NCBI RefSeq assembly: GCF_025965585.1
Contig: NZ_JAOPWR010000477.1
Coordinates: forward strand, 1 to 58,987
Direction: 5' to 3'
Length of the DNA: 58,987 bases
DNA from: Pseudonocardia sp.
GTDB lineage: Bacteria > Actinomycetota > Actinomycetes > Mycobacteriales > Pseudonocardiaceae
The position numbers and the translations under genes are program-made. Below the pieces are notes generated by a model. It saw only the letters and a program-made list of their open reading frames with translations. It had not been told where the DNA came from and did no database searches. Positions 21,046 through 25,420 of the stretch are shown piece after piece (position 1 is the stretch's first letter; the number at the start of each line of letters is the position of its first letter).

Positions 21046-21365
21046 CCGAGGGCAGCAGACGCGTCGGCCGGTACGTCCGGATGGTGGCGCACGAGGGACA
21101 GGGCGCGCGGCTCGCCGACACGCTGTTGAGAGTGGCAGACGGCATGCGCGGCGCACCGGGCTGCGAGCTGTACGTCATCAACGTCTCGAACGACGAGGCA
21201 GACACGGTGTGGGTCACCGAGGTCTGGGCCGACGAGGAGGCCTCCGACCGGGCCCTGAACGGCGAGCTGGGCGAGGTCGGCATCGGCGACGTGCTCGAGC
21301 TGCTGGCCGGGCCGCCGGAGCTGGTGGACATCACCCCGATCGGCGGCGCCGGCCTGCCGGGCTAG
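21042..21365 (+). CDS. Antibiotic-biosynthesis-monooxygenase-fold (ABM) small protein
   Basis: A 107-residue protein with the dimeric ABM ferredoxin-like fold, in the pattern of putative quinol monooxygenases: RYVRMVAHEGQGARLADTLLRVADGMRGAPGCELYVINVSNDEADTVWVTEVWADEEASDRAL. Relatives oxidise quinols or anthrones without cofactors, or bind haem. The start is GTG 21042, seven bases after GCGGAGG; it overlaps the stop of a 13-codon upstream frame. Its TAG shares CTAG with the stop of the convergent TerC gene. The physiological substrate is unknown. Confidence 0.83.
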   Translation: MTEGSRRVGRYVRMVAHEGQGARLADTLLRVADGMRGAPGCELYVINVSNDEADTVWVTEVWADEEASDRALNGELGEVGIGDVLELLAGPPELVDITPIGGAGLPG

Positions 21366-22369
21366 CCCTCGCGCTCCGCAGGCTCGGTCCGGTGGGCCTT
21401 GAGTGAGCCGGCGTGCGCCTTCGCCGCGGGGTCGCCCTTCGTCTTGGCCAGGCTGGCCACGGTGGTGATCACGAGCACCACCACGATCACGCCGAGGCTG
21501 ACGGGCGTGGAGATCTCCGGCACCGACGTGCTGATGTCGACGTGCGCCCAGTGCAGCATCAGCTTGACGCCGATGAACGCGAGGATCAGCGCCAGGCCGG
21601 CCGACAGGTAGACGAGCCGGTCGAGCAGACCCTGCACCAGGAAGAACAGGGCGCGCAGGCCCAGCAGCGCGAACGCGTTGGCGGCGAAGACGATGTACGC
21701 CTCCTCCGTCACGCCGAAGACGGCGGGGATGGAGTCGAGCGCGAAGAGCAGGTCGATGCTGCCGATCGCGATGAGCACGACGAGCAGCGGCGTCACCATC
21801 CGGCGGCCGTCGACCTTCGTGAAGATCCGGCCCCCGTGGTAGTCGTCGGTGACGGGGAGGAACCGGCGCGCGGCCTTGACCACGGCGTTGTCCTCGACGT
21901 CGGGGTCCTCGTCGCGGTGGCGGAACAGCTGCACCGCCGTGAAGACGAGCAGCAGCCCGAAGATCAGGAACATGAACGAGAACAGCGACAGCAGCGTGGC
22001 ACCGAGCGCGATGAAGACGGCCCGCATGATCAGCGCCAGGATGATGCCGAACGTGAGCACCTTGTGCTGGTGGCGCTCGGGCACCGCGAACGTGGTCATG
22101 ATGATCACGAAGACGAAGAGGTTGTCGACCGACAGGCTCTTCTCGACGAGGTAGCCGGCGAAGTACTGGGTGCCGAGGTCACCCCCGTAGGCCGCGGCGA
22201 ACCAGACGCCGAACGCGATCGCCACGCCGATGTAGAACAGCGACCAGGCCGTGGCCTCCTTGAACCCCACCTTGTGCGGCTTGATCGCCGCCACGACGAG
22301 GTCCATGGCCAGGAGCCCGACGATGACGGCGATCGTCACCGCCCACGTGAGCCCGCTGATCTCCAGCAC
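21362..22369 (-). CDS. TerC-family integral membrane protein
   Basis: A 335-residue TerC protein with nine predicted membrane segments. The paired acidic family motifs are visible in YLVEKSLSVDNLFVFVIIM and GSIDLLFALDSIPAVFGVTEEAYIVFAANAFALLGLRALFF. Relatives (TerC, Alx, MeeF) export manganese or support metal loading of secreted enzymes. The start is GTG 22369, with GGAGG five bases upstream. I looked for a yybP-ykoY manganese riboswitch ahead of it and did not find one. It runs convergent with the ABM gene and shares the CTAG stop. Confidence 0.92.
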   Translation of the reverse strand: MLEISGLTWAVTIAVIVGLLAMDLVVAAIKPHKVGFKEATAWSLFYIGVAIAFGVWFAAAYGGDLGTQYFAGYLVEKSLSVDNLFVFVIIMTTFAVPERHQHKVLTFGIILALIMRAVFIALGATLLSLFSFMFLIFGLLLVFTAVQLFRHRDEDPDVEDNAVVKAARRFLPVTDDYHGGRIFTKVDGRRMVTPLLVVLIAIGSIDLLFALDSIPAVFGVTEEAYIVFAANAFALLGLRALFFLVQGLLDRLVYLSAGLALILAFIGVKLMLHWAHVDISTSVPEISTPVSLGVIVVVLVITTVASLAKTKGDPAAKAHAGSLKAHRTEPAEREG

Positions 22370-22404: not shown

Positions 22405-22958
22405 TTACCCAACGGAGGCTGTCGTCCCCGGGTTCCCCGGGTGATGCAGCACTCGACGCGCCGCCGCGAACACCCCGTCCGGGGAGCATCCCCCAGCGAG
22501 CAGCGCACGAACGAGAGAGCCGCCGATCTCCCCCAACCGGGCGGCGCCGTCGGCGCCGAGGTGCGCCCACGGTGCGTGGCCGAGCGGTTGGTGTCGTCCT
22601 CGGTGCCCTTCCGCAGGGCCTCACCCGCGGGCGTCAGGGCACCACCGGCATCGAGGACGCCTCGGCCAGTCGCACAACGGCCGCGTTCCACTGCTCCTGG
22701 CTCCAGCCACGGCTGCCTGTCGCGAACGGCACCACGAACCCGCGCCCGGTGGCGGTGTAGCTGACGAGCGCGTCCAGCCCGGCCCCGACGAGGCCCACCG
22801 CGCCCATCGGCGCCGACCGCACGGCCAAGTAGCTCATCCGGCCCGGCTCGAGACCGGCCGCCACCAGGTGCTGCCCCGGCTCGGGGGCGAAGTAGGTCAT
22901 GGCGTGCAGAGGTTCGAGGCCGCGCGCGAGCCGGCCCGGGTCAGGGGTTCCCCGGCGC
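22405..22958 (-). pseudogene. Decayed SCO6745-like gene, split over three frames with an internal deletion
   Basis: Reading down the minus strand, RLARGLEPLHAMTYFAPE and YLAVRSAPMGAVG match the N-terminus of SCO6745-type actinobacterial proteins (about 280 residues), joined directly to a C-terminal GSRGWSQEQWNAAVVRLAE. Near 22660 the match moves to a second frame (RGVLDAGGALTPAGEALRKG). Near 22568 it moves to a third (WAHLGADGAARLGEIGG, then VFAAARRVLHHPG) ending at TAA 22405-22407. About 100 central residues are missing and no start codon with a ribosome site fits the N-terminal frame. Three frames, a deletion and no start mean it is dead. Family recognition is from memory. It lies divergent to the repeat-peptide operon. 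Confidence 0.7.
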
Positions 22959-23065
22959 GGCCGCCACCGCCGAAAGATCCACCAGCCGGGGACATGGTTC
23001 GGCCGCGAACGGGGTAGACGGCGGAGGTCACCGCTCCTGGTGACCCGACACGAGGAGGACGACCC

Positions 23066-23281
23066 ATGGCGCTCGACGACGACGACATGACCACGACCGC
23101 AGGCGGTGGCGCCGAGGGTCCCGCCGACTCCGGCGCGGGCAGCGGCGCCCCAGGCGTCCACGACGGCGGCGCGGACGGAGGCGCCGACTCCGGCGCCGAA
23201 GGACCGGCCGACTCCGGCGCAGGCACCCGGGGCGTCCACGACGGCGGGGCCGACGGAGGCGCGGACAGCGGTGCCAGCTGA
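23066..23281 (+). CDS. Acidic tandem-repeat small protein (71 aa), candidate peptide substrate of the downstream oxygenase
   Basis: The gene starts at ATG 23066, seven bases after GAGGAGG, a strong ribosome site. The product has a short leader (MALDDDDMTTTAGGG) and two near-identical units, residues 17-44 and 45-70, each containing EGPADSGAG and GVHDGGADGGADSGA. It has no Lys, Cys or aromatic residue, one Arg (R55) and only two His (H32, H58), at the same place in each unit. The 3' end overlaps the JmjC oxygenase gene by 11 bases. JmjC/ROX enzymes hydroxylate His, Arg or Asp/Asn in proteins, so this peptide could be the substrate; that is inference. No known family is recognised with certainty. 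Confidence 0.75.
   Translation: MALDDDDMTTTAGGGAEGPADSGAGSGAPGVHDGGADGGADSGAEGPADSGAGTRGVHDGGADGGADSGAS
23114..23275 (+). repeat. Two-unit tandem repeat inside the small acidic gene
   Basis: Unit 1 is 23114-23197 and unit 2 is 23198-23275. The shared residues are identical, yet at least nine codons differ only at synonymous positions (for example Glu GAG/GAA, Pro CCC/CCG, Ser TCC/AGC). The units differ in protein only in the linker (SGAP against TR). The duplication is therefore old and the amino-acid sequence has been kept by selection. Confidence 0.85.
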
Positions 23282-24542
23282 CGTCACCGGTCCCGTGACG
23301 GGCGCCGGGCAGTCCTCCGCGGACCGCCCGGCCCCGGCCCTCACCCGGGCCACCGGCCTCGACGCCGAGGTGTTCGGTGCGAAGCACTGGGGTCGCGAGC
23401 CGCTGCTGGTGCGCCGTGCGGACACCCACGGCTTCCGCGACCTGCTCGACCTCGACGGCGTCGACGAGCTGCTCTCCCGCCGCGGGCTGCGCACCCCGTT
23501 CCTGCGCCTGGCCCGCAACGGCGCGGTGGTGGACTCGAGCTCGTTCACCGGCCCCGGCGGGGTCGGCGCGGAGATCGGCGACCAGGTGCGCGACGACAAG
23601 GTCGCCGGGCTGTTCGCCGAGGGCACCACGGTGGTGCTGCAGGCGCTGCACCGCCTCTGGCCACCGGTGATCGACTTCGCCACCCGGCTCGGCGCGGAGC
23701 TCGGCCATCCCGTGCAGGCCAACGCGTACGTGACGCCGCGGGCGTCGCGCGGGTTCTCGGCCCACTACGACGTGCACGACGTCTTCGTGCTGCAGCTCGC
23801 CGGGCGCAAGCACTGGACCGTGCACGCGCCCGTGCACACCGACCCCCTGCGCGACCAGCCCTGGAACGACCACGCCCGCGCCGTCGCCGCCCGGGCCCGC
23901 GACGACGCGCCCGCGATCGACACGGTGCTGGAGCCCGGCGACGTGCTCTACCTCCCACGCGGCTGGCTGCACGCGGCCACCGCGCTGGGCGAGACGTCCG
24001 CGCACCTGACCGTGGGCGTGCACGTCGTCACCCGGTTCGCGCTGGTCGAGGCGCTCACCGCGCTCGTGGGCGACGACCCGGAGCTGCGTGCGTCGCTGCC
24101 GCTGGGGCTCGACCTCGCCGACCCCGACATGCTCGACCCACACCTCGACGACGTGCGCGCGGCCCTGCACGCCGCGATCGACCGGGTGCCCGCCGAGGCG
24201 GTCGCGCGCCGGGTGCGCCGTCACGTCTGGACCGGCGGCCGCCCGGAGCCGGTGCGCCCGGTGGCCGCCGCCGCGTTCGCCGAGGGGCTGGCCGAGGGCG
24301 ACACCGTCCGGCTCCGCGTCGGTCTGCACCACCGGCTGACCAGGAACGGCACCACCGTCGTGCTGGAGCTGCCCGACCGGCGGATCGAGCTGCCGGCCGC
24401 CACCGCCGACGCCGTCCGCGCGCTCCTCGGTGGGGACGCCCTGGTCGTGGGTGGCCTCCCGGGCATGGACGGGCCTGACCAGATCGTGCTGGTCCGCCGC
24501 CTGCTGCGGGAGGCCGTGCTGGTGCCGGCCGACCCGGCATGA
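23271..24542 (+). CDS. JmjC/ROX-type cupin Fe(II)/2-oxoglutarate oxygenase
   Basis: A 423-residue Cupin_4 (JmjC, ribosomal-oxygenase-like) protein. The N-terminal segment VFGAKHWGREPLLVRR is typical of the family. The iron ligands are H165 and D167 (HYDVHDVFVLQLAGRKHW) and H234 (VLYLPRGWLHAAT); QANAYVTP precedes the first. A C-terminal winged-helix-like half follows (RIELPAATADAVRALL). Relatives hydroxylate His or Arg in ribosomal proteins, but specialised ones act on other peptides. GTG 23271 overlaps the repeat-peptide gene by 11 bases; GTG 23295 is an alternative. Its TGA overlaps the next start as ATGA. Tight coupling to a peptide gene suggests the peptide is its substrate, untested. Confidence 0.88.
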   Translation: MPADVTGPVTGAGQSSADRPAPALTRATGLDAEVFGAKHWGREPLLVRRADTHGFRDLLDLDGVDELLSRRGLRTPFLRLARNGAVVDSSSFTGPGGVGAEIGDQVRDDKVAGLFAEGTTVVLQALHRLWPPVIDFATRLGAELGHPVQANAYVTPRASRGFSAHYDVHDVFVLQLAGRKHWTVHAPVHTDPLRDQPWNDHARAVAARARDDAPAIDTVLEPGDVLYLPRGWLHAATALGETSAHLTVGVHVVTRFALVEALTALVGDDPELRASLPLGLDLADPDMLDPHLDDVRAALHAAIDRVPAEAVARRVRRHVWTGGRPEPVRPVAAAAFAEGLAEGDTVRLRVGLHHRLTRNGTTVVLELPDRRIELPAATADAVRALLGGDALVVGGLPGMDGPDQIVLVRRLLREAVLVPADPA

Positions 24543-25420
24543 CCACCGCGACGCGCTGCGCGGACGTCGCCGACGCCGCGGACGATCCGCGCGAGGGCAC
24601 GGCACCCCCGGCCGAGCGCTGGTTCCTCGTCGAGCACCCGGGGCCCTGGGGCCGGGTCGCGCTCGCCCAGTCGGGCATCGTTCCGGGTGCGGTCGCCGCG
24701 CTCTCGGCCTGGGCACTCGCGGAGAACGGGCGGGTGCTGCTGGTCCGCAGGCACAGCCGCCGCACCGGTGCGGCGAAGCGGCGCTGGTTCCGCGTCGACT
24801 CCCGCCCGGGCCACGAGGAGATCCGCACCGGCACGTTCACCGACGAGGCCGACCTCGTGGCCGCCGTCCGTGCCGCGGGCGACCCGTTCGACGGGCCGCT
24901 GTACCTCGTCTGCACCCACGGGCGCCACGACACGTGTTGCGCGGTGCGCGGCCGGCCGGCGGCCGCCGCGGTGGCCGCCGCCGCGCCGGAGCGCACGTGG
25001 GAGTGCAGCCACATCGGCGGGTGCCGGTTCGCGCCCGCGCTCGTGCTGCTGCCGCACGGGTTCACGCTCGGCGGGGTCCCGCCGGAGTGCGTCCCGGCCG
25101 TCGTGCGCGACTACGCCGAGGGACGCCTCGAACCGCGCTGGGCCCGGGGCCGCTCGGTGCACTCTCCTGCGGTCCAGGCCGCGCAGCAGTACGCCCGCGT
25201 CGTCACGGGTGCCACGGCCGTCGACGCGCTCGAGCCGGTGTCCGTGGAGCCCGACGGCGCCGCGTGGGTGGTCCGGTTCCGCGACCCGGACGTCACCGTG
25301 CGGTTGCGGGAACGCCGCGTCGAGGCCGGCCGGCCGCTGACCTGCACCGCCACCGCGCCCGGCTGGTTGCGCGTCTTCGACCTCGTCGACGTCGAGCCGT
25401 CCCCTACCGGTCGGCCCTGA
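24539..25420 (+). CDS. Sucrase/ferredoxin-like protein (thioredoxin-like [2Fe-2S])
   Basis: A 293-residue Suc_Fer-like protein. The cluster-binding motifs are LVCTHGRHDTCCAVRGRP and WECSHIGGCRFAPALVLL, giving the CX8C and downstream CSHxGG pattern of thioredoxin-fold [2Fe-2S] proteins. The third block usually reads GGHRFA; here a Cys replaces the His (GGCRFA), so the cluster may have altered ligation. The start overlaps the oxygenase stop (ATGA, 24539-24542). In this operon it could supply electrons to keep the JmjC iron reduced, or act on the peptide itself. It overlaps the convergent App1 gene by 17 bases. Confidence 0.85.
   Translation: MTTATRCADVADAADDPREGTAPPAERWFLVEHPGPWGRVALAQSGIVPGAVAALSAWALAENGRVLLVRRHSRRTGAAKRRWFRVDSRPGHEEIRTGTFTDEADLVAAVRAAGDPFDGPLYLVCTHGRHDTCCAVRGRPAAAAVAAAAPERTWECSHIGGCRFAPALVLLPHGFTLGGVPPECVPAVVRDYAEGRLEPRWARGRSVHSPAVQAAQQYARVVTGATAVDALEPVSVEPDGAAWVVRFRDPDVTVRLRERRVEAGRPLTCTATAPGWLRVFDLVDVEPSPTGRP

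Follow-up and report, generated by a model that had tools for sequence, protein, structure and literature searches.

The JmjC ribosomal oxygenases (ROX) MINA53, NO66 and YcfD hydroxylate their substrates at C-3, and FIH can hydroxylate Asp (PMC4543633). JmjC hydroxylation has a precedent among the ribosomally synthesised and post-translationally modified peptides (RiPPs), because BipG of the biphenomycin pathway is a JmjC enzyme that hydroxylates Orn in a RiPP precursor (PMC12707348). Beta-hydroxylation of Asp in a RiPP has been reported for PesHI, a multinuclear non-haem iron-dependent oxygenase (MNIO) of nitrilobacillin (PMC13060819), and for SmaO of a graspetide cluster (as cited in PMC13097080), while the graspetide corallotide carries repeated motifs that are hydroxylated by a 2-oxoglutarate (2OG) oxygenase (PMC13097080). 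In fish and algae, Bregman et al. described fusions of PF08007 with domains resembling the RiPP recognition element (RRE); they also noted RiPP-like genomic contexts for the nearest JmjC homologues in bacteria, at ~30% identity (PMC12710340). Here we describe an operon on contig NZ_JAOPWR010000477.1 of Pseudonocardia sp. (assembly GCF_025965585.1; the window is the whole stretch analysed, 58,987 nucleotides), in which a repeat peptide, a ROX-type JmjC oxygenase and a Suc_Fer-like protein are encoded in that order by three tightly coupled genes of the same strand (23066-25420, +).

The peptide-JmjC-Suc_Fer operon is real and conserved, and as a system it is undescribed in the literature searched: no account of such an operon was found, in agreement with the first-pass annotation of the window, which knew of no characterised example. 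The nearest remark is that in PMC12710340, where the section concerned names no peptide, Suc_Fer partner or family and makes no statement tying the remark to the clade described here. The system is RiPP-like, with an enzyme of known fold in a combination that is new. Taken as a whole, the best explanation is a self-contained peptide-modification operon with leader-guided hydroxylation of Asp, an account that we hold with fair rather than strong confidence.

The enzyme resembles NO66 and MINA53 over the full-length fold, including the C-terminal winged-helix or RRE-like domain, and YcfD over the catalytic part only, with the HxD...H ligands intact in the host enzyme. The substrates of those three enzymes are ribosomal proteins, whereas here the oxygenase gene is tightly linked with one for a dedicated repeat peptide and with a Suc_Fer gene. 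With BipG it would share the action of a JmjC oxygenase on a residue of a ribosomal precursor, but the BipG cluster holds an MNIO, a radical S-adenosylmethionine (SAM) enzyme and others, in contrast to the one oxygenase, Asp-repeat core and Suc_Fer protein of this locus. The likeness to PesHI and SmaO is beta-hydroxyaspartate in a ribosomal peptide, which is a proposal for the present operon; PesHI belongs to an MNIO system, whereas here a ROX-type JmjC enzyme faces many repeated Asp. Corallotide has in common with the operon a large repeat precursor, hydroxylation by a 2OG-Fe(II) enzyme (proposed here) and a partner protein, but in corallotide Lys is hydroxylated after macrocyclisation by a graspetide synthetase, and the conserved trio contains no synthetase.

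Architecture of the operon

The first-pass annotation had read the locus as genes overlapping by 11 bp and then as ATGA, the first encoding a 71-residue acidic repeat peptide with a leader-like N-terminus. The sequence bears out both readings: the GTG start of the JmjC gene (23271) falls within the last codons of the peptide gene, giving the 11-bp overlap, the Suc_Fer start overlaps the JmjC end as ATGA at 24539, and a peptide lies at the equivalent position in relatives. The features are as follows.

23052-23058, +: ribosome-binding-site-like GAGGAGG, 7 nt 5' of the peptide ATG (from the sequence)
23066-23281, +: repeat precursor peptide, 71 aa, start ATG, 17% Asp, without Cys or aromatic residues
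23066-23095, +: leader region MALDDDDMTT (family consensus LxD[DE]D[IM]xT, from 58 script-aligned leaders)
23114-23197, +: core repeat 1, EGPADSGAGSGAPGVHDGGADGGADSGA (from sequence and alignment)
23198-23275, +: core repeat 2, EGPADSGAGTRGVHDGGADGGADSGA (from sequence and alignment)
23271-24542, +: JmjC (ROX-type) Fe(II)/2-oxoglutarate oxygenase, 423 aa, start GTG (from Pfam, a PDB profile search, and the model with its fold match)
23709-24029, +: JmjC_2 domain match with H165, D167, H234 and invariant N151/Y153/K180
24297-24539, +: C-terminal RRE-like or ROX winged-helix domain, putative leader-binding site (from the fold match of the model)
24539-25420, +: Suc_Fer-like partner (thioredoxin-fold ferredoxin family), 293 aa

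Co-occurrence of the three genes

A scan of species genomes for the JmjC protein gave 16 loci, spanning Pseudonocardia, another member of the Pseudonocardiales, Saccharopolyspora, Kribbella, a Streptomyces-labelled strain, Actinomycetospora, Actinoplanes and Symbioplanes. A like repeat peptide lies directly upstream of the enzyme in 16/16 and a Suc_Fer gene downstream in 12/16, one of the twelve (L007) being cut by a contig end. Among 396 Actinomycetota genomes, the JmjC profile matched 56 at E <= 1e-30, and 51 of these hold an in-family enzyme, the other five being control genomes. The peptide profile matched 12 of the 396, which are exactly the 12 best JmjC genomes (the host included), and the matches lie at the same places. 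A second tier of 17 enzymes, scoring ~190-318 bits, belongs to further actinobacterial lineages, where the enzyme mostly stands beside a different peptide type. A third tier of 22 loci, matched mainly in the N-terminal part, was fetched as a test after the pattern had been set.

Over all 68 in-family Actinomycetota loci, a peptide was found at 65 (by tier 28/29, 16/17 and 21/22) and an adjacent Suc_Fer gene at 55 (22/29, 15/17 and, among the late-fetched loci, 18/22), although these counts are not independent, many of the loci being closely related. The peptides of L083 and of the late-fetched L098 were assigned by eye. The peptide misses are L072, which was judged to have none, and L087 and L097, which have only 2 bp and 137 bp of upstream sequence, respectively; the Suc_Fer misses include L096, which ends at a contig end.

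Within the host family (200 genomes), the JmjC enzyme was found in 40 (E <= 1e-100), the peptide in 40/40 (37 by profile and three, below the profile threshold, by eye) and an adjacent Suc_Fer gene in 39/40, G484 being without one. All 37 peptide-profile matches fall within the 40 JmjC genomes, an overlap with a hypergeometric probability of 3e-37 if relatedness is ignored. The trio is thus kept in other genomes, where the first-pass annotation had suggested looking for it. In G469 an assembly break lies near the peptide, so that peptide and enzyme stand near separate contig ends (L121, L122), and such repeats may be prone to loss in draft genomes. The operon is patchy, the JmjC gene being present in 3/11 listed genomes of the host genus, its own included; a search of the host genome returned the window copy only. 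A search for plasmid copies gave 21 records, none of which reaches 60% identity or spans 80% of the query.

Of six control JmjC/Cupin_4 loci, drawn from five genomes and belonging to other clades, none carries the peptide (0/6) or Suc_Fer (0/6), which rules out a generic Cupin_4 neighbourhood. Two of the six have another small upstream peptide. At L093 and L095, which belong to another JmjC clade and lie in two genomes of one genus of the host's class, the upstream peptides share a C-terminal GRSDGND and possibly represent a further JmjC-associated peptide family.

The distribution bears on the reading in which the enzyme is an ordinary YcfD/NO66-like oxygenase acting on a ribosomal protein, with an upstream peptide that regulates translation or is a neighbour without a substrate role. 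NO66, MINA53 and YcfD are the closest solved relatives by both sequence and fold, as this reading would have it. Yet the enzyme is patchy (40/200 family genomes), the amino-acid sequence of the peptide is conserved, its profile matches only enzyme-bearing genomes in both samples, and the peptide type tracks the enzyme clade (see below). We regard an ordinary ribosomal oxygenase as very unlikely.

The repeat peptide

The host peptide reads MALDDDDMTTTAGGGA, followed by two repeats, EGPADSGAG...GVHDGGADGGADSGA. Neither Pfam nor NCBIfam gave a family for it at E <= 1, and eight peptides compared with NCBIfam gave no family, the sole match being a 9-residue daptide match below the cut-off. A leader consensus, L-x-D-[DE]-D-[IM]-x-T, was found by script in 58/65 peptides. 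The search pattern loosely fixed four positions and left the L and the first D/E free; at these free positions the 58 leaders carry L in 49 and D/E in 58. The leader of L064, one of the 58, was picked at the wrong place, and its true start, MAIEDDDIET, fits too. By eye, L062, L083, L084 and L098 among the remaining seven fit the consensus, L071 fits in part, and L069 and L070 do not.

Four core types were distinguished, GGAD, Asp-rich, TDQG and EPTEDDENLD, of which the first two are the main ones. In the 57 peptides measured, Asp stands between small residues in the cores and Cys is absent. GGAD-class peptides are 60-165 aa long with a variable repeat number (23 measured), and their Asp residues are spaced mainly by 4, 8, 9 or 12 residues, compared with 2-3 in the Asp-rich class. 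The latter contains 25-37% Asp in 12 measured, for example LSEDDIETVTGG...DGDASDTDAADADASDGDA, with a leader of the same form. Upstream of the enzyme, 13 of the 17 second-tier loci reach at least 38% Asp in a 40-aa window, whereas none of 2799 other open reading frames (ORFs) has such a window at 30% Asp; L081 and L083 fell below the threshold, masked bases in L081 being excluded from the count. The L083 core consists of SADGTDQGVxGGTYGPRDA repeats (TDQG type), and this locus has no Suc_Fer gene downstream. The L098 core holds two copies of a EPTEDDENLDAPGEHSQDTGD-like repeat (EPTEDDENLD type) behind a leader of the same form.

The two main core types, GGAD repeats and Asp-rich repeats, correspond to two enzyme clades and share the leader. 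On the enzyme tree, 4 label changes suffice to separate the core types; no smaller number is possible, and 0/200 shuffles reached it. In this tree L087, whose peptide lies beyond the contig end, was labelled Asp-rich by assumption.

High GC content, low complexity and the many spurious ORFs of the region raise the question of whether the peptide ORF is spurious, an artefact that GC-rich repeats have produced. Codon changes between the host peptide and its nearer relatives are mostly in third positions; in comparison with L015 and L016 they are not mainly so. The number of non-synonymous codons lies below the random mean of 500 simulations in 7/7 close comparisons, being below all simulations for L004 and L007, tied with the lowest for L001 and L003, and within the simulated range for L002, L005 and L006. 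The last three comparisons would be insufficient alone, but the start, leader, repeat and position are conserved over many genera and the profile matches only in enzyme-bearing genomes. Conservation, the Asp background and the codon changes together rule out a chance ORF, and an artefact can be given practically no weight.

The JmjC enzyme and its C-terminal domain

The host enzyme matches JmjC_2 (PF08007) with an E value of 3.4e-28, and the same match is found in 52/52 members, the six controls included. The iron ligands H165, D167 and H234, together with N151, Y153 and K180, are invariant in 17 aligned orthologues, and the HxD...H ligands are invariant in all 52 sequences. The earlier assignment of a JmjC/ROX oxygenase with intact H165, D167 and H234 is upheld by the family match, the fold and this invariance. 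The predicted model of the enzyme (md53e219d6455) has a mean predicted local distance difference test (pLDDT) score of 82.8. It matches NO66 with Z 24.0 over 369 aligned residues at a root-mean-square deviation (rmsd) of 16.8, a value that points to a different domain placement, and its catalytic part matches YcfD with Z 20.1 and rmsd 4.6 over 249 aligned residues.

The C-terminal 81 residues are modelled with a pLDDT of 91.9, and their top fold matches are MINA53 (Z 12.3, rmsd 1.7) and NO66 (Z 9.6). After these ROX proteins, the matches are mainly RRE-bearing RiPP enzymes: MccB (8.2), PbtF (7.7), TbiB1 (7.5), ThcOx (7.4), TruD (7.0), a lasso B1 protein (6.7) and PqqD (6.5). The title of the PbtF structure names an RRE, and in several of the other RiPP-enzyme structures we take the matched part to be the RRE; GdmN, BmdB/BmdC and NGO1945, also among the matches, are presumably not RREs. 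A single Z below 8 is weak, and it is the run of RREs that suggests the RRE likeness of the modelled domain.

The Suc_Fer protein

The third protein matches Suc_Fer-like (PF06999) with an E value of 2.7e-16 and 60.6 bits against a curated cut-off of 34.9. It had been annotated as a thioredoxin-like [2Fe-2S] protein; the Suc_Fer-like match sustains the family assignment, while the [2Fe-2S] part derives solely from the Pfam name. Residues C125, C133, C134, H130 and H158 are conserved, and at position 162, four residues beyond H158, 8 of 30 sequences carry Cys and the other 22 Asp. A sequence search for a solved Suc_Fer structure gave no credible match. Apd1 belongs to the Suc_Fer family. The likeness to Apd1 and Aim32 is the thioredoxin-like ferredoxin fold. 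The pocket of Apd1 is 2Cys2His (PMC11126956), whereas here, if the ligands are spaced as in Apd1, Cys or Asp stands at the fourth ligand position.

Six genomes, namely the host and five with no or a weak adjacent copy, were searched throughout for Suc_Fer at E <= 1e-10. No Suc_Fer gene was found elsewhere in G204, G278, G279 or G181, and G139 has one distant copy away from the locus. The host genome carries a second, more distant Suc_Fer gene, L120 (contig C290, 2386-3144).

The Suc_Fer protein may not be an electron donor and could instead be a second partner with a modifying or chaperoning role, which binds the peptide or supplies iron. 2-Oxoglutarate oxygenases are not known to need an external electron donor for turnover, and Cys or Asp takes the place of His at the fourth ligand position. 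Furthermore, 13/68 loci (among them L096, at a contig end) have no adjacent copy, so the partner is not strictly required. On the other side stand the Pfam match above the curated cut-off and the conserved Cys and His residues. We regard this alternative as a tentative one, with a real but lesser chance of being correct.

Proposed mechanism and competing explanations

In the proposed mechanism, translation would yield a short precursor whose tandem-repeat core follows an N-terminal recognition stretch, in most members LxD[DE]D[IM]xT. This stretch would be bound by the RRE-like domain at the C-terminus of the oxygenase, and the JmjC site, with Fe(II) and 2-oxoglutarate, would work along the flexible core and hydroxylate many repeated side chains. 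The modified residue would most likely be Asp at C-beta, because Asp is the sole polar residue prominent in every core type and is flanked by small residues, and because C-3 is the position that characterised ROX enzymes hydroxylate. The Suc_Fer protein might serve as a redox or iron partner that keeps the enzyme iron reduced over many turnovers. Synteny, the recurrent leader, the match of clade to core type, the intact metal-binding residues and the fold are observed; that the JmjC enzyme acts on the peptide is most likely, as predicted from sequence and model.

The first-pass annotation had spoken of a RiPP-like or protein-hydroxylation system, and the recurrent leader, the exchangeable repeat cores and the RRE-like domain predicted from the model argue for such a system. 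The term RiPP is less certain than that of a dedicated peptide-hydroxylation system, because the neighbourhoods yielded neither a conserved leader protease nor a conserved exporter; the product could be a RiPP or else a hydroxylated protein that stays inside the cell.

Several findings weigh against leader-guided Asp hydroxylation. In the fold search with the C-terminal domain, ROX proteins outrank RREs, and the Pfam PqqD model gives no match to this domain. An RRE-like domain is common to ribosomal oxygenases, and a modelled fold alone is no proof of leader binding. Asp is preferred to Gly, Ala, Asn or His on grounds of sequence conservation only. The GGAD peptides L069 (MSEQNLEGPADGG...) and L070 (MANPEQDPNQQEGPADGG...) are without the leader motif, the leader of L071 is only partial (MNDDDTMGT), and the ORF upstream of the enzyme at L072 is acidic and unrelated-looking. 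L069-L072 form one subclade in the enzyme tree, and the loss or change of the leader may for this reason be a single event. The loci without an adjacent Suc_Fer gene count on the same side. Finally, among ORFs of at least 100 aa at 46 loci, no protease or transporter is conserved across lineages, within a reach of up to 4 kb on either side for 16 loci and 7 kb for most others, and leader removal and secretion are therefore unsupported.

Some of these points would fit a stable, intracellular acidic protein that is not processed as a RiPP, and whose function (metal or cation binding, or protein or nucleic-acid mimicry) would be tuned by JmjC hydroxylation, as with FIH and ankyrin repeats. The lack of a conserved protease or transporter nearby, the long, low-complexity cores with their variable repeat number, and the missing leader motif of L069 and L070 are all in keeping with it. 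However, a recurrent N-terminal stretch before otherwise exchangeable cores is the usual leader and core pattern, and proteases can be encoded elsewhere. An unprocessed protein is in our view rather unlikely.

If leader-guided hydroxylation is true, the operon would represent a widespread ribosomal peptide class, with an in-family enzyme in 51/396 sampled Actinomycetota genomes, and its enzyme would be a candidate iterative hydroxylase whose natural substrate is a repeat peptide. The enzymes of the class share a fold family with human NO66 and MINA53. The three small genes make the proposal directly testable in E. coli, and the leader motif and the C-terminal domain make the class easy to mine. 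A bolder and doubtful extension is a phylum-wide, undescribed class of poly-beta-hydroxyaspartyl repeat peptides, each made by one leader-guided ROX-type oxygenase. Their many adjacent carboxylate and hydroxyl pairs would bind iron or another metal, Suc_Fer would keep or release the iron, and the product would be a ribosomal metallophore or metal buffer. This extension would also suggest that the human oxygenases NO66 and MINA53 have a leader-binding architecture in common with RiPP enzymes.

Neighbouring genes

Among ORFs of at least 100 aa within 4 to 7 kb at the 46 loci, none beyond the trio is conserved across lineages, as judged from clustered ORFs that were not scanned individually for MNIO or radical SAM enzymes. 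Other conserved ORF clusters near the loci were set aside as shadow ORFs or lineage synteny. A TerC/Alx metal-homeostasis membrane protein is encoded near the operon (21362-22369, -), and conserved ORF clusters at the distance of this gene occur in Pseudonocardia-type loci only. Between it and the operon, the stretch 22637-22969 (-) gives a partial match to the SCO6745-family profile (263 positions), with 74.7 bits against a cut-off of 120, and resembles a shortened remnant.

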